Below, piece after piece: positions 4,753 to 31,097 of a stretch of DNA of 64,000 bases. Origin of the DNA: Hyphomonas sp. CY54-11-8 (GTDB lineage Bacteria > Pseudomonadota > Alphaproteobacteria > Caulobacterales > Hyphomonadaceae); the NCBI RefSeq assembly GCF_000682735.1, contig NZ_AWFD01000001.1, positions 496,001 through 560,000 on the forward strand, written 5' to 3'. The first letter of the stretch is position 1; every line of letters begins with the position of its first letter. A model generated the notes under the pieces. That model made no database searches and was not told the origin of the DNA. It saw only the letters and a program-made list of their open reading frames with translations. The position numbers and the translations under genes are program-made.

Positions 4753-5403
4753 GTGACCAGGCTTCGCTCGATGGTCTGGACGGCAATCATTGTCGCCGTC
4801 GCTTACCAGTTCCTGGTCATCCTGCCGGCGATCGTTGTCCATGGCCTGATGCCGGGCATGTCGATCATCACGCTGTCCGGCATTGCCAATGTCCTGACCG
4901 TGATGGCGATCTATGGCTATCTCAAGGTTCAGGGGGTGGCTGACGAAGTGGCCGAGCCCGGCGACATGAACCTGATGATCGTGCTATTCGCCGTCGTGGT
5001 GGCCATGATCGCGGTTGCCCTTGCCACCTTCATGGCTGACCTTCTGGCCACGATGTTCGGACCAGGGGGGCTGAGCGTCAGTGACAGTTTTACGCAACAA
5101 CTGCAGACCGGCCGGCGGGCGGAAATCCTGTTTGCTGTGGTTCTGGTCGCCCCTTTTGCGGAAGAGTTCGTCTATCGAGGGCTGGTCATGGGCGTCCTGC
5201 TCGCCCGCGGCTGGTCGCCGTTTTCAGCAGCAGGCCTCTCGGCCGCGATCTTTGCCATCCAGCATATCCAGTATGGCTGGATCGGCATCCTGATGGTGAT
5301 GATGTACGGCATGGTGCTGGGCCTACTGCGTGTGGCGAGCGGCGGCCTGTTCCTGCCGATCATGGCGCATTTGTTCATCAACCTTATCTCGCTGACGATG
5401 TGA
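4753..5403 (+). CDS. CPBP family intramembrane metalloprotease (Abi/CAAX-like)
   Basis: A hydrophobic protein of about 216 residues with five or six membrane helices. It contains the CPBP signature EEFVYRG (Glu137, Glu138, Arg142), FAIQH (167-171) and a final His in HLFIN (206), which form the metal site of Rce1-like intramembrane proteases. Relatives process membrane proteins, prenylated peptides or bacteriocins; the bacterial substrate is usually unknown. The start is chosen as GTG 4753. ATG 4771 is the first ATG, and a further upstream TTG at 4666 is in frame but lies just after the terminator hairpin. No operon partner is evident. Confidence 0.82.
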   Translation: MTRLRSMVWTAIIVAVAYQFLVILPAIVVHGLMPGMSIITLSGIANVLTVMAIYGYLKVQGVADEVAEPGDMNLMIVLFAVVVAMIAVALATFMADLLATMFGPGGLSVSDSFTQQLQTGRRAEILFAVVLVAPFAEEFVYRGLVMGVLLARGWSPFSAAGLSAAIFAIQHIQYGWIGILMVMMYGMVLGLLRVASGGLFLPIMAHLFINLISLTM

Positions 5404-5474
5404 CGCGCCCAGTGCAGCGCCCCTTCGTTGGGGGAGGGCTGGCAAATCCCGGCGGACAGCGCTAAGCGGTCGCC

Positions 5475-5951
5475 ATGACTGACGATCTTTCACGCAACCA
5501 GACATTCGACCTGCCGGAAGGCTACCAGATGCTGCCCTGGCACCGGGGTTTTGGCCGCCAGGTGGGTCCGCTGTTCGAGAAGCGGGACGAGACGGGCGGC
5601 CTGACCCGCGCCTTCCGTGTCGAGGAGCATCACACCAACGGCATGATGAATGCCCATGGCGGCATGCTCATGACCTTTGCCGACATGGCCTGGGGCGCGG
5701 CGGTGGAGAAGGATGACGACACCTGGTGGGTGACGGTCCGCCTGATGTGCGACTTCCTGTCGGGCGCCAGCATGGGCAGCTTCGTCGAAGGCAAGGGCCA
5801 TGTAATCGGCCGGCAGGACGATGTCTTCACGGTCGAGGGGAAGATCTGGGCCGGTGACAAGCTGCTGATGCGGGGCACGGGCATCTTCAAGGTGATCGAG
5901 CGCCGGGACGGGCAGCAGAAGCCGTTCACACGGCAGGAACAGAACGCCTGA
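5475..5951 (+). CDS. PaaI-type hotdog thioesterase
   Basis: A 158-residue single-hotdog protein. The segment NAHGGMLMTFADMAWG (59-74) matches the PaaI/acyl-CoA thioesterase active-site pattern, with an HGG turn and Asp70 on the central helix as the likely catalytic residue. It would hydrolyse an acyl- or aryl-CoA to free acid and CoA in the cytoplasm. The start ATG 5475 follows GCTAAGCGGTCGCC without a clear ribosome site. It ends 8 bases before the -35 element of the histidine operon and is probably transcribed separately. Confidence 0.82.
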   Translation: MTDDLSRNQTFDLPEGYQMLPWHRGFGRQVGPLFEKRDETGGLTRAFRVEEHHTNGMMNAHGGMLMTFADMAWGAAVEKDDDTWWVTVRLMCDFLSGASMGSFVEGKGHVIGRQDDVFTVEGKIWAGDKLLMRGTGIFKVIERRDGQQKPFTRQEQNA

Positions 5952-5959
5952 GCTTTCGG

Positions 5960-5988
5960 TTGACTTTGCCGGGCCGCCCCCGTATCGG
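5960..5988 (+). promoter_or_regulatory. Sigma-70-type promoter of the histidine operon
   Basis: TTGACT (5960-5965) and TATCGG (5983-5988) are separated by 17 bases. Transcription should begin near 5991-5996, only a few bases before the leader peptide ATG at 5999. The leader mRNA would therefore be leaderless or nearly so, which fits the absence of a ribosome-binding site. Confidence 0.55.
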
Positions 5989-5998
5989 CCATTTCGTA

Positions 5999-6037
5999 AT
6001 GAACACTGCACTGAACCACCATCACCATCATTCGTGA
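5999..6037 (+). CDS. hisL: Histidine operon leader peptide
   Basis: A 12-codon open frame encodes MNTALNHHHHHS and stops at TGA 6035-6037. Five consecutive His codons (CAC CAT CAC CAT CAT, 6017-6031) lie directly upstream of hisS-hisZ-hisG, the context expected of a his attenuator leader. Ribosomes short of His-tRNA should stall here and change the folding of the downstream RNA. A promoter with its expected start a few bases upstream implies leaderless translation. A chance run of five His codons at this exact location is very unlikely, but the mechanism itself is inferred. Confidence 0.8.
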   Translation: MNTALNHHHHHS

Positions 6038-6136
6038 CGCGCCGACGAGGCGCGAACCGATCCGGCTGCGCCTCTGCTAAAGTGTTCCCCCGAAGAACCA
6101 GACCAGACGAGGCAGGCCACCGCCGGGGCGTGCCTG
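6038..6136 (+). promoter_or_regulatory. Candidate his attenuator: mutually exclusive hairpins
   Basis: Right after the hisL stop, CGCGCC (6038-6043) can pair with GGCGCG (6049-6054). The overlapping segment GAGGCGC (6047-6053) can instead pair with GCGCCTC (6068-6074), so the two hairpins exclude each other. A further stem AGGCAgGCC / GGCgTGCCT (6110-6118 with 6127-6135, one mismatch) could be a late terminator-like element. Its AGGC part, with the base before it, may also compete for 6070-6074. No U-run follows, so transcription attenuation by a classic terminator is not proven; Rho or translational control are alternatives. Confidence 0.5.
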
Positions 6137-6220
6137 ATGTTGACGTGTCGCCTTCCAATCCGGACCAGCACCGACTATGCGGTGCGCAAACACGACTAAG
6201 AGCGACCCCAAGAGCGAAAC

Positions 6221-7702
6221 ATGAGCGACAAAGACAGCCAGCCTCTCTCCGGCAAAGACCTCGCCCGCAAGCCGCGCGGCTTTCCCGACAAGCGCGAGGG
6301 CCTGATCCATGCCCAGGCAGAGCTGGTCGGCAAGGTCACCGCGGTTTACCGCCAGTGGGGTTTCGAGGCGCTCGACACCGGCGCGTTCGAATATGCCGAT
6401 GCGTTGGGCAAGTTCCTTCCCGACGACGATCGACCGAATGCCGGCGTCTTTTCGCTTCAGGACGATGACGAGCAGTGGATCTCGCTGCGCTATGACCTGA
6501 CGGCGCCGCTCGCGCGTTTTGTGGCAGAGGCTGGCCAGTCGCTCGGCAAGCCGTTCCGCCGTTATGCTGCCGGGCCTGTCTGGCGCAACGAGAAGCCAGG
6601 GCCGGGGCGCTTCCGCGAATTCTGGCAGTGCGATGCGGACACAGTTGGCGCACCGGGCTTCCATGCCGATGCCGAGATGATCGCCATGGGCGCCGAAGCC
6701 CTCCGCGCCGTGGGCATGGAGACGGGCGAGTTCGTGCTCCGCGTGAACACGCGCCGCCTGCTGAATGGTGTGCTGGACGGGGTGGGTGCCTCCAGCGCTG
6801 AGACGCGCCTCGCCATCCTGCGCGCGCTCGACAAGCTGGACCGGCTCGGGTCTTCCGGCGTTGCCGACCTGCTGGGCAAGGGCCGCATGGATGAGAGCGG
6901 CGACTTCACCAAGGGTGCCGGGCTGGATGCGGACAAGGTGAAGACGGTGCTCGCCTTCGCGGAAGCCGGTGCGGCAACGCGGGCCGAAACGCTGGCCAAT
7001 CTTTCGAAAGCCACAGGTGCGACGGAAGAGGGCAAGGCGGGCCTTGCCGAACTGGAAGCCATCGCGCTCGCGCTCGATGCGCTGGGCGCGCCGGAAGGCG
7101 ATGTCGTGATCGACCCGTCGGTCGTGCGCGGCCTCGAATACTATACCGGCCCGGTCTATGAGGCCGAGCTGCTGCGAGAAGTGACCGGCGAAGATGGCAA
7201 GACCTATCGCATTGGCTCCATTGGCGGCGGCGGGCGGTATGACGACCTCGTCGCGCGCTTCACCGGCGAGACGGTTCCGGCGACGGGCTTCTCCATCGGA
7301 ATCTCCCGCCTCGCGTCCGCCCTGCAGATCATGGGCGAGACAGGCAAGCTGGACGGCCCGGTTGTGGTGTTGAACCTCGACAAGGAAAATCCGTCCACGG
7401 CACTCTCCATCGCGACGGACCTCCGCCGCGCAGGCATCCGGGCTGAGGCGTACATGGGCGCCTCCGGCATGCGGCCGCAAATGAAATATGCTGACCGCCG
7501 CAACGCACCCGCCGTCGTCATCGTCGGCGAGGACGAGATGGCCAAGGGCACGGTGACGATCAAGGACCTTGAAATGGGTGCGCTTAAAGCGAAGGCCATC
7601 AAGTCCAATGAGGAATACCGCGAAGCCCGCCCGGGCCAGATCGAAGTACCGCGCGCAGAGATGGTTGAAGCCATCCGCCGCATCGTCGAGGCTCAGGCAT
7701 GA
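6221..7702 (+). CDS. hisS: Histidyl-tRNA synthetase
   Basis: A 493-residue class II synthetase that charges tRNA-His. Motif 2 (about 113-140) reads RRYAAGPVWRNEKPGPGRF. The histidine-binding signatures are VRGLEYYTG (302-310) and GSIGGGGRYDDL (332-343), and motif 3 is GFSIGISRL (356-364). The NEKPGPGRFREF form of motif 2 is typical of alphaproteobacterial enzymes, many of which act on tRNA-His lacking the usual G-1 base. The gene follows a His leader peptide and overlaps hisZ by 4 bases, so synthetase and biosynthesis genes share one transcript. Only a weak AAGAG sequence precedes the ATG. Confidence 0.95.
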   Translation: MSDKDSQPLSGKDLARKPRGFPDKREGLIHAQAELVGKVTAVYRQWGFEALDTGAFEYADALGKFLPDDDRPNAGVFSLQDDDEQWISLRYDLTAPLARFVAEAGQSLGKPFRRYAAGPVWRNEKPGPGRFREFWQCDADTVGAPGFHADAEMIAMGAEALRAVGMETGEFVLRVNTRRLLNGVLDGVGASSAETRLAILRALDKLDRLGSSGVADLLGKGRMDESGDFTKGAGLDADKVKTVLAFAEAGAATRAETLANLSKATGATEEGKAGLAELEAIALALDALGAPEGDVVIDPSVVRGLEYYTGPVYEAELLREVTGEDGKTYRIGSIGGGGRYDDLVARFTGETVPATGFSIGISRLASALQIMGETGKLDGPVVVLNLDKENPSTALSIATDLRRAGIRAEAYMGASGMRPQMKYADRRNAPAVVIVGEDEMAKGTVTIKDLEMGALKAKAIKSNEEYREARPGQIEVPRAEMVEAIRRIVEAQA

Positions 7703-8829
7703 CCTATGCAGCTGTCGTGAAGGCGGCCCGGTCCCGGTTCGAGGCCTCCGGTGCCAAACCGGTGAACCCGGCCTATATCCTGCCGTCCGACATTCCGCTG
7801 GAATTGTCAGGCGAGGCGGTCCGCGCGCGACTTTGCGTGTTTACGGATCATCGCGGAAACGAAATGGTCATGCGCCCGGACCTGACCCTGCCGGTGGCGG
7901 GGCTGGAAGCAGACCGGCTCGCCGGCGGGACCAACGGCCCGAAGGCCTATTGCTATGCCGCTGAGGCCTTCCGACTGCCAGCAGCCGCTGGCGACCCGAT
8001 GGAATTCACGCAGGTCGGCTTTGAACGCTTCGGGCGGGACTCCGATCCGGTCGAGGATGCCGAGGCCTTTGCGCTGGTGCACGAAGCCGTTCGCGATTGC
8101 GGTGTGGTGCCTGTGGCAATTGCCACCGGAGACCTCGCAATCTTCCCGGCGTTCATCGATGCGCTGGGCCTGCCGCGCGTCACGGCAGACCTGTTGAAGC
8201 GCGCGTTCCGGCAGGAAGGCGGCGTACGGGCGCTGGTCGAGGCATCGCCAGCGCCGATCGAGGCAGACCTTGTGCCGACGCTGGAAGCTGCCACGCTGGA
8301 AGAAGCCGAAACGGCCTTCCGGGCAGCACTGGCCGAGCGGGGCATCCCCTTGATCGGGACACGGAGCGTTCCGGAAATCATCGCTGGGCTGCGTGCCCGG
8401 GCCGCGGCGCTTGCTGCAGGCGGGGTGCCGGAAAAAGTGCGAGAGGTCATCGGCGCGCTGGCGGCGGTGAACTGCACCGCTGCCGAGGCCGCTGACCAGT
8501 TGGACGCAATCGCTGTGAAATACAGCCTGTCACGCACCTCCAGTGCGATCGACCGTGTGGCCCGGCGCATGGAACTGATCCGGGAATTGCTGCCTGAGGT
8601 GAAGGCGATCTGCCGCTTCCGGTCCGGCTTCGGGCGGCGGTTCACCTATTATGACGGCTTCCTGTTCGAGACGCTGGGGCCGAATTTGAGCGAGCGCCAG
8701 CCCATCGCTTCCGGCGGGCGGTATGACGGTCTCGTTTCCGGTCTCTCGAACGGCAAGGCGAACGCCACCGCCATTGGCGGCGTTGTGCGGCCCGACCGCG
8801 TGCTGCGTGCAAAGGGGAGGGGCGCATGA
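7699..8829 (+). CDS. hisZ: ATP phosphoribosyltransferase regulatory subunit
   Basis: A 376-residue paralogue of the HisRS catalytic core. It retains class II features, such as the segment RPDLTLPVAG and the C-terminal SGGRYDGLVSGL resembling the HisRS histidine-binding loop, but lacks the anticodon domain. HisZ pairs with the short form of HisG to build the hetero-octameric ATP phosphoribosyltransferase and makes it sensitive to histidine. ATGA overlaps on both sides (with hisS and hisG) indicate translational coupling and equal output. The direct adjacency of HisRS and its derived paralogue HisZ is notable. Confidence 0.92.
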   Translation: MTYAAVVKAARSRFEASGAKPVNPAYILPSDIPLELSGEAVRARLCVFTDHRGNEMVMRPDLTLPVAGLEADRLAGGTNGPKAYCYAAEAFRLPAAAGDPMEFTQVGFERFGRDSDPVEDAEAFALVHEAVRDCGVVPVAIATGDLAIFPAFIDALGLPRVTADLLKRAFRQEGGVRALVEASPAPIEADLVPTLEAATLEEAETAFRAALAERGIPLIGTRSVPEIIAGLRARAAALAAGGVPEKVREVIGALAAVNCTAAEAADQLDAIAVKYSLSRTSSAIDRVARRMELIRELLPEVKAICRFRSGFGRRFTYYDGFLFETLGPNLSERQPIASGGRYDGLVSGLSNGKANATAIGGVVRPDRVLRAKGRGA

Positions 8830-9548
8830 CCCGTCTGTCACTCGCCATTCCGTCCAAGGGGCGGCTGAAGGAAAAATCCGAGGCATGGCTGGCCTCCGCA
8901 GGCTTCCCCGTCACCCAGATTGGCGGCGAGCGCGGCTACCAAGCCCAGATCGAAGGGCTTGGCGATGTGGAGATGCGTCTCCTGTCGGCGCGGGAGATCG
9001 CGCAAGGCCTTGTCGATGGCAGCCTGCATGCGGGCGTAACCGGCGAAGACCTGCTGCATGACCTCGCCCCGACCGGGGAGAGCGATTTCGACGTCGTGAA
9101 ACGGCTGGGCTTCGGTGGGGCAGACGTGATCGTCGCCGTGCCGCAGGCCTGGGTGGATGTCGACACGATGTCCGACCTTGAAGCGGCCGGGGCTGCGTTC
9201 CGCAAGGCGCACCACCGCCGCCTGCGGGTTGCGACCAAATATATGCGCCTGACCCGGCGCTTCTTCGCGGCGCGGTCGGTCGGCGAATACCGCCTCGTCG
9301 AGAGCGCGGGAGCGACTGAAGCCGCCCCAACGACAGGTTCGGCCGACGTGATCGTGGATATCACCTCCACCGGGGCGACGCTGAAGGCCAACGGACTGAA
9401 GATCCTGTCAGACGGGCTGATTCTGAAAAGCGAGGCGGTCTTTGCGGTGTCACCGGGTGCCGTATGGTCATCTGAAGCCAAGGCCAGCCTGGAGGTCTTG
9501 TTCGCAGGTGCAGCAATTAAAGGTAAGGAATTACTAGAAAAAATCTAG
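8826..9548 (+). CDS. hisG: ATP phosphoribosyltransferase, short-form catalytic subunit
   Basis: A 240-residue protein catalysing the first step of histidine synthesis, ATP plus PRPP to phosphoribosyl-ATP. It opens with LSLAIPSKGRLKE, the usual HisG N-terminus, and contains the PRPP-binding loop segment ADVIVDITSTGATLKANGL. It lacks the C-terminal ACT-like regulatory domain of long HisG proteins, so it needs HisZ, which is encoded just upstream with a 4-base overlap. It is the last gene of the operon; a strong hairpin follows at 9618-9661. The other his genes are not in the window. Confidence 0.95.
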   Translation: MTRLSLAIPSKGRLKEKSEAWLASAGFPVTQIGGERGYQAQIEGLGDVEMRLLSAREIAQGLVDGSLHAGVTGEDLLHDLAPTGESDFDVVKRLGFGGADVIVAVPQAWVDVDTMSDLEAAGAAFRKAHHRRLRVATKYMRLTRRFFAARSVGEYRLVESAGATEAAPTTGSADVIVDITSTGATLKANGLKILSDGLILKSEAVFAVSPGAVWSSEAKASLEVLFAGAAIKGKELLEKI

Positions 9549-30713: not shown

Positions 30714-30723
30714 CGGAAGAAAA

Positions 30724-31097
30724 GACCAGACGGCCTGTAAGCCGGGTTCTGTTCGCCTGATTGCTCAGGTCTGGCAGCCATTCCTCTGGGATGCCTGTTG
30801 CCAGGCACCTCACGCGACACACCCGGGGCGCAGGCGGGATACAGCCCATGCGCGCCCCCTATTCGGTCTTGCTCCGGGCGGGGTTTACCGTGCCGGTCCT
30901 GTCGCCAGTCCCGCGGTGGGCTCTTACCCCACCCTTTCACCCTTACCTCCCGCGAGGGGAGGCGGTTTGCTTTCTGTGGCACTTTCCCTCGGCTTGCGCC
31001 GGGCGGCCGTTAGCCGTCGCCCTGTATCCCTGGAGCCCGGACTTTCCTCCAGCATGCCGTTACCAGCATGCCAGCGGCTGCCCGGCCGTCTGGTCTG
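30724..31097 (-). ncRNA. rnpB: RNase P RNA (class A)
   Basis: The catalytic RNA of RNase P, which trims tRNA 5' ends. On the minus strand the conserved 5' block GAGGAAAGTCCGGGCTCC and the 3' block ACAGAACCCGGCTTA are both present. Helix P1 is formed by GGCCGTCTGGTC (31095-31084 on the opposite strand) and its complement at 30724-30735, which fixes the ends to within a few bases. The length of about 374 bases is normal. A -10 TATATA lies just upstream. Confidence 0.96.

Follow-up and report, generated by a model that had tools for sequence, protein, structure and literature searches.

The hisS-hisZ-hisG operon of the window (the whole stretch of 64,000 nucleotides analysed, G000:C1:496001-560000) is preceded by a short leader that, judged by comparison with its relatives, is a real, conserved and histidine-sensing element, and that probably lets Hyphomonas-type bacteria make more of the hisS operon's products when histidine is short. 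We consider it reasonably likely that this leader operates as a ribosome-mediated RNA switch that senses the charging of tRNA-His and adds transcription into hisS-hisZ-hisG. If so, it would be a conserved alphaproteobacterial histidine attenuator that does not belong to the classical his operon, would place the tRNA-His charging enzyme and the first step of histidine synthesis under one sensor, and would provide a compact test case for attenuation on a leaderless RNA, with a 39-nt open reading frame (ORF), a fixed register and two near-equal states. The features concerned are listed below in window coordinates.

5960-5965 (+): -35 hexamer of promoter P1, TTGACT; TTGAC is conserved in 62/62 leaders
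5983-5988 (+): -10 hexamer of P1, TATCGG; 10 nt from its end to the leader ATG
5999-6037 (+): leader ORF, MNTALNHHHHHS and stop codon (translation of the window ORF); no Shine-Dalgarno sequence seen
6001-6007 (+): arm A, GAACACT, base 3 of the ATG through codon 3; complement of X
6017-6031 (+): five histidine codons in a row; CAC/CAT drift in relatives
6038-6043 (+): arm 1, CGCGCC, immediately 3' of the stop codon
6047-6054 (+): arm 2, GAGGCGCG; pairs with arm 1 or arm 3
6064-6074 (+): arm 3, GGCTGCGCCTC; pairs with arm 2 (via 6068-6074) or arm 4
6081-6087 (+): arm X, AGTGTTC; partner of A or X'
6095-6098 (+): arm X', GAAC; at the tip of hairpin 3:4
6109-6118 (+): arm 4, GAGGCAGGCC; pairs with arm 3
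6153-6158 (+): -35-like TTCCAA of P2, the predicted hisS promoter; window score 6
6176-6181 (+): -10-like TATGCG of P2, within the conserved inverted repeat GCACCG-ACTAT-GCGGTGC
6221-7702 (+): hisS, histidyl-tRNA synthetase (P0001); TIGR00442, 372.8 bits (cut-off 286.75)
7699-8829 (+): hisZ, ATP phosphoribosyltransferase regulatory subunit (P0002); NF008953, E 6e-60, below the curated cut-off
8826-9548 (+): hisG, ATP phosphoribosyltransferase (P0003); TIGR00070, above the cut-off

Leader peptide, promoters and operon

Related loci were collected by hisS searches, which yielded 30 loci and at least 80 further loci (16 minus-strand loci were reoriented). Most Hyphomonas loci and many of Henriciella type had the same short His ORF 5' of hisS. 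A covariance model built from the first 90 nt of the leader (R1; threshold E <= 0.001) matched 63/105 family genomes, each time directly 5' of hisS and on the same strand. The leader set comprised 62 sequences, distinct over the first 150 nt, with eight identical ones merged; a second R1 match in one genome (L182 in G032) was left out of all counts. L182 has a CTG start and no TTGAC in 45 nt, and lies on a contig other than that of hisS. The 42 genomes without an R1 match comprised five without a hisS match, two in which a contig end truncates hisS, and 35 that were inspected upstream of the gene; as 42 of 105 genomes go without a match, the leader is dispensable. From R1-negative genomes, 31 upstream regions were taken, one of which (L257) spans only 253 nt. 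Locus L255 carries a short ORF that encodes three consecutive His (MRTSAHHHCA), and the region shared by L053 and L256 a decayed form (MSYGPHPHCA), both R1-negative. Four Hyphomonas-type loci lack the leader (L016, L024, L028 and L043, the last taken as G010 by matching coordinates). A promoter-like CTTGCC...CTAG is present 5' of hisS in these four loci.

The 12-codon frame with five consecutive His codons that had been described in an earlier note on this DNA is separated by 47 nt from the stop codon of the ORF before it (5475-5951). Its run of five CAY codons is unique in the window and occurs in 0/100 dinucleotide shuffles; an origin of the run by chance was rejected on account of its absence from the shuffles and its conservation in relatives. 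The peptide has 12 codons in 57/62 leaders and 11 in the other five, and its longest His run comprises six codons in 39 leaders, five in 8, four in 8, three in 3 and two in 4, so that the His codons are conserved in orthologous leaders, the test set beforehand. In the 12-codon ORFs (46 distinct ones), each position from codon 6 to codon 11 is CAC in some and CAT in others (codon 6: CAC 24, CAT 18) and non-His residues are rare, which implies that selection acts on the meaning of the codons. An ORF with cognate codons, as expected of an attenuator, is thus conserved as codons across the 62 leaders. The window's own copy is slightly worn, its first His being replaced by Asn, and CACGA is read 5' of hisS where neighbours have CAGGA.

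P1 has the form TTGAC, N17, TA.... in 62/62 leaders (17 nt separating TTGACT and TATCGG in the window), as located by a script that gave preference to TA and permitted spacings of 16-18 nt. Between the -10 element and the ATG lie 6-10 nt in 62/62 leaders (8 nt in 38), and the transcript is predicted to start at about position 5995, a few bases 5' of the ATG. The sigma-70-like promoter proposed earlier is thus borne out in its spacing, its start being a prediction. A generic sigma-70 scan of 5400-6700, which demands T at position 6 of the -10 element, listed no promoter, and the support for P1 therefore comes from conservation. The tetramers GGAG, AGGA, GAGG and AAGG are absent from the 18 nt 5' of the ATG in 60/62 leaders, that of the window included; a Shine-Dalgarno-like tetramer before the ATG is present in L046 and L183 only. 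Given the distance between promoter and ATG and the missing Shine-Dalgarno sequence, a leaderless or almost leaderless leader ORF is likely.

The reading frames of hisS and hisZ and those of hisZ and hisG overlap by 4 nt each. P0002 gave strong matches to HisZ models (best E 6e-60), all of them under the curated cut-offs. Irrespective of the presence of the leader, the order hisS-hisZ-hisG on one strand holds in 90/97 loci examined; in L015, L035 and L280, hisG was not found at the end of the contig or stretch, and L300, L301, L303 and L304 are pieces too short to span the three genes. The genes downstream of the leader thus serve the amino acid encoded by its codon run. The earlier idea of a His-sensing, near-leaderless peptide ahead of this operon gains support from the 62 conserved leaders.

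Between the switch and hisS, the window contains the P2 sequence TTCCAA-N17-TATGCG. A P2-like pair is present just 5' of hisS in 53/53 leaders with a placeable hisS start (of 62), with a spacing of 17 nt in 49/53 and a -10 element that mostly reads TATGCG (29) or TAAGCG (12). The P2 score is at least 7 in 79 % of the leaders versus 8 % of mononucleotide shuffles, the window (6) lying below this value. At roughly the place of P2, TTG...-17-TATCCC occurs in 14/31 upstream regions without an R1 match. The position of the P2-like pair downstream of the switch speaks for control at the level of transcription and implies that hisS would be supplied separately, with the leader only contributing on top of this. 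The proposal that the peptide sets the output of both the synthetase and the HisZ/HisG step was therefore too strong.

Alternative pairings of the leader RNA

Two mutually exclusive hairpins had been noted after the stop codon. Both are present, but they appear to form only part of a larger two-state switch, together with the A:X pairing and a long 3:4 hairpin. In the window, hairpin 1:2 consists of CGCGCC (6038-6043) and GGCGCG (6049-6054), and hairpin 2:3 of GAGGCGC (6047-6053) and GCGCCTC (6068-6074); they exclude each other because arm 2 is common to both. Among the 57 distinct rows of the alignment, 99.7 % of the 1:2 cells and 98.2 % of the 2:3 cells are paired. Counted from the A of the ATG, the stop codon occupies nt 37-39 and arm 1 nt 40-45, with arm 2 starting at 51/52 and arm 3 ending at about 75. 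Arm 1 adjoins the stop codon in 59/59 leaders measured (3/62 were unparsed: L013, L019 and L183) and follows it directly in 51/51 distinct leader ORFs (46 with CGCGCC, 5 with one change), a register that is kept also in peptides one codon shorter. The stop/arm 1/arm 2 register as a whole is kept in 56/59 leaders measured; as exceptions, arm 1 shifts with the stop codon in two short-peptide leaders and arm 2 begins at 54 in one. Exclusive helices in a fixed register with the stop codon, a further hallmark of attenuators, are thus found here.

Segment X (approximately nt 83-91) reads GTGTTCAT in most leaders and is the complement of the leader start, ATGAACAC. Leaders with an MKT peptide start with ATGAAAAC and have GTTTTC as X, in L183 GAGCA pairs with TGCTC in a register of its own, and G-U pairs preserve A:X in variants of codons 2-3 (e.g. 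ATGAAT, ATGAGC, ...CAT). The six core pairs are formed in nearly all of the 57 distinct rows; 90.7 % of the A:X cells are paired, and the outer two pairs hold 39/42 of the unpaired ones. The covariation score of structures containing A:X was 0.092 for A:X with 1:2 (shuffle mean 0.043) and 0.112 for A:X with 2:3 (shuffle mean 0.061), with 0/500 shuffles as high in either case, in an alignment that came from a model already containing A:X and 2:3. Six slid registers all scored lower (best, +2: 0.061 with 1:2 and 0.077 with 2:3). Pair 6 is C-G in 43 rows, A-U in 10, U-G in 2, G-C in 1 and unpaired in 1. Its switch from C-G to A-U is confined to one clade of the HisS tree, and the second change on that tree, in L015, is an uncompensated A6 that breaks the pair. 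L183 is out of register in the alignment, which invalidates three of its cells scored as changed on both sides. The best register found by the A:X script differed in 7/62 leaders; the X hexamer is still aligned in five of these (L003, L005, L026, L163 and L178), and only four pairs form in L180 and L181. A:X is thus supported by pairing that is nearly universal, by one clade with compensation, by L183 when read in its own register and by several variants that keep G-U pairs; the limitation of covariation to a single clade slightly lowered our confidence in the best explanation.

The 3:4 pairing survives sequence change, with GCGTCTCTG/CAGAGACGC in L023 (folded) and CTT/AAG replacing CTG/CAG in L006, L025 and L027 (as the alignment shows). 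Some Hyphomonas leaders also show a 4:5 pairing (GAGGCA/TGCCTT), which was dropped as a part of the switch, as it failed in Henriciella when judged by eye and uncounted. When nt 1-98 were folded, A:X formed in 60/62 leaders, 2:3 in 29/62 and 1:2 in 30/62; the two hairpins are about equally frequent with A:X, which alone thus does not select 2:3. Extension to nt 1-130 (13 examples) shifted ten leaders to 1:2 combined with a long 3:4 hairpin, at whose tip GTTC:GAAC or a similar pairing is formed, and the window (L001), L153 and L168 kept A:X and 2:3. For 132 nt of the window, the free minimum is A:X + 2:3 at -38.1 kcal/mol, compared with -36.5 kcal/mol for 1:2 + 3:4. The mean z-score of the 3:4 region was -1.86 in 34 Hyphomonas leaders, -2.67 in 14 Henriciella leaders (MNT) and -1.95 in 11 MKT leaders, a set that omits L180, L181 and L183; in the window, the 3:4 hairpin alone was no better than shuffles (z +0.53). 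The fold of the window was ordinary in comparison with shuffles as well (z -0.93 for 5995-6220, z -0.27 for 6030-6140), and given this unremarkable single-sequence fold the case for the leader rests on comparison.

The earlier statement that there is no U-run terminator stands: no terminator-like site was found on the + strand between 5400 and 6700, and an intrinsic terminator, otherwise expected of an attenuator, is therefore missing from this region. The 8 nt after 2:3 hold a mean of 2.4 T versus 1.5 in the background, a weak tendency; X is somewhat U-rich, most of all in MKT leaders, where 8 nt hold up to 5 T, and the stretch 3' of X is C-rich and G-poor in the alignment. No U-run follows 3:4 in the alignments read, some MKT leaders excepted. 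A reading of 2:3 and X as a plain intrinsic terminator was weakened by the mean of only 2.4 T per 8 nt. This low U content makes intrinsic termination doubtful, leaving Rho or a weak terminator as candidates, and the leader would represent a variant that works like a ribosome-mediated attenuator and has no clear U-run.

A proposed ribosome-mediated switch and competing explanations

In the proposed mechanism, transcription from P1 would start at the AUG or a few bases 5' of it, and the first ribosome would load onto the bare 5' end while it leaves RNA polymerase. A ribosome covers about 15 nt on either side of its P site. With ample His-tRNA, it would reach the stop codon and cover about nt 19-49 of the transcript, masking arm 1 and leaving A, at the 5' end, free, so that 2:3 and A:X could form (state I). 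With scarce His-tRNA, it would stall at the first His codons and cover about nt -2 to 28, masking A and leaving arm 1 free to form 1:2; arm 3 would thereby be released for 3:4, whose tip is formed by X:X' (state II). Of the two, state I would be OFF, either because 2:3 followed by the U-containing X acts as a weak terminator or because the C-rich stretch past X serves as an entry site for Rho. State II is predicted to be ON, given that more hisS and hisG product is needed when tRNA-His is uncharged, and P2 further downstream would provide basal hisS expression. The main argument for this mechanism is that the two natural positions of the ribosome pick out the two conserved folds.

A simpler scheme is the classical two-hairpin attenuator, with 1:2 as the antiterminator and 2:3 as the terminator, in which A:X merely hides the start codon or shields the 5' end of finished transcripts. 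It would account well for the near-invariant register of stop codon, arm 1 and arm 2 (56/59), for the greater mean stability of 2:3 compared with 1:2 (-14.7 and -11.3 kcal/mol, respectively, over 59 leaders) and for the somewhat U-rich X, especially in the MKT group. However, it gives A:X and 3:4/X:X' no part in the decision and has to rely on a weak U-tract, and we regard it as unlikely.

The missing U-run and the C-rich, G-poor stretch past X would also agree with purely translational or Rho-only control, in which the switch would act on the full-length mRNA by masking or freeing either the ribosome-binding site of hisS or a rut site. Such control is improbable, since the hisS start lies about 120-200 nt past X (134 in the window) and beyond P2, transcripts from P2 would evade it, and in seven genomes hisS is also situated behind a tRNA that RNase P should excise. 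A Rho readout as such is compatible with the ribosome-mediated switch as well. Still less credence is given to the idea that the region is mainly promoter or operator DNA and that the His-rich ORF goes unread: the third positions of the His codons drift like coding sequence and the pairing of arms 1-3 is maintained, which leaves the strong conservation of the promoter and the location of the P2 -10 element in an inverted repeat, a possible protein-binding site, as the points in its favour.

Known attenuators and variant leaders

In Rfam scans, nothing reached the gathering score for the leader in the window, and nothing was reported up to E 10 for 5940-6260. Neither the His_leader model (RF00514) matched the leader nor did any T-box model match in the window or in 5940-6260, and membership of a known RNA family was rejected on the basis of these scans. 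The enterobacterial his leader (RF00514; PMC9413887) shares with the present one a run of His codons in a short ORF, exclusive hairpins and a his gene downstream. In contrast to that system, the Hyphomonas leader precedes hisS-hisZ-hisG, has scarcely any 5' UTR, uses its start region as a switch arm, shows no clear U-run and is followed by a separate promoter-like site for hisS. A leaderless attenuator peptide is known from Sinorhizobium meliloti, whose trpL/rnTrpL RNA begins at the leader ATG (PMC7298713); this attenuator is likewise alphaproteobacterial, and the Hyphomonas transcript is predicted to start at its ATG or a few bases 5' of it. The trpL system differs in responding to Trp and in controlling other genes, and the available part of that source mentions neither an A:X pairing nor a tRNA variant. 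In bacilli, a His leader peptide precedes a hisS paralogue and hisZ (Naville and Gautheret 2010, PMC2965389), again a His-codon ORF ahead of hisS-family genes, but in Firmicutes and not ahead of hisS-hisZ-hisG; that paper reports no similarity between the leaders of Firmicutes and Proteobacteria. A map paper on Caulobacter describes leader peptides before trpS and ilv genes, and hisS is absent from its main text. Neither a leaderless attenuator peptide nor a His leader before hisS-family genes is thus new on its own. Proteobacterial attenuators are reportedly the subject of Vitreschak et al. 2004. The open-access literature searched yielded no report of an alphaproteobacterial His leader ahead of hisS.

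A His ORF of 23-26 codons (e.g. MTRTPHHHGHHHHPTSPRGIGRVRTL) lies 5' of hisS in 18/80 loci among the matches listed, mostly from Caulobacter and Phenylobacterium (L056, L058-L068, L070, L072, L075, L076, L079 and L095). A strong GCCCC...GGGGC hairpin follows the stop codon in 18/18 of these loci, which were chosen for having the ORF, and GCTATA occurs within 30 nt before the ATG in 11/18. The operon and the presence of a His run soon after the ATG are the same as in Hyphomonas, whereas the length of the peptide, the mostly split His run, the arms and the GCCCC...GGGGC hairpin differ. Caulobacter-type genomes have a His leader of another kind in front of this operon, a likeness that carries no claim of common descent. 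A scan of 450 nt upstream revealed no ORF with a run of at least three His in L071, in L107 or in the loci from Brevundimonas and Microvirga; a single CAY x3 occurs in L085 at -406, outside the listed ORFs.

A tRNA-Gln(TTG) gene with an encoded CCA end is situated between the switch and P2 in seven leaders (L049, L168, L169, L171, L173, L180 and L181), for instance:

L049:4853-4926: leader tRNA-Gln(TTG) of L049

The anticodon stems vary and yet pair (ACCGA/TCGGT, ACTGA/TCAGT, ACACG/CGTGT and GCCGG/CCGGC). An odd T loop in L181, an odd D arm in L169 and a T at position 73 in 7/7 make the function of the leader tRNA-Gln uncertain. Decayed tRNA remnants are found in L175 and L179. In one genome consisting of a single contig (G072; 39 tRNA matches), ARAGORN called two Gln(TTG) genes, the leader copy and the canonical one. 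Gln codons are present in the peptides of 7/7 tRNA-bearing leaders and in 2/55 of those without the tRNA (L148, and L179 beside its decayed tRNA), so that both traits occur in 7 of the 62 leaders, the tRNA only in 0, Gln codons only in 2 and neither in 53 (Fisher test, 7e-8). Both traits change three times on the HisS tree. The tree offers only three independent pairs, of which two agree and one is undifferentiated, and significance is unreachable with such numbers. The link between tRNA-Gln and Gln codons, as seen in these sequences, is therefore striking and not significant after phylogeny. Tentatively, and with more doubt than conviction, we propose that the start region of a leaderless ORF serves as a switch arm, so that initiation, stalling and release would all be read off one 39-nt ORF, and that in some relatives the leader may have become a double His/Gln sensor that controls the tRNA-Gln gene lying between switch and hisS, codons and tRNA being gained and lost together. 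If true, the variant would be an attenuator that changes its amino-acid specificity along with its target gene. Genes resembling the leader tRNA-Gln are located in tRNA clusters of other members of the order (L312-L315 and L317); phages match the leader tRNA-Gln, but they match the canonical tRNA-Gln likewise. The window also contains a bacterial RNase P RNA of class A at 30722-31093 on the minus strand (309 bits).
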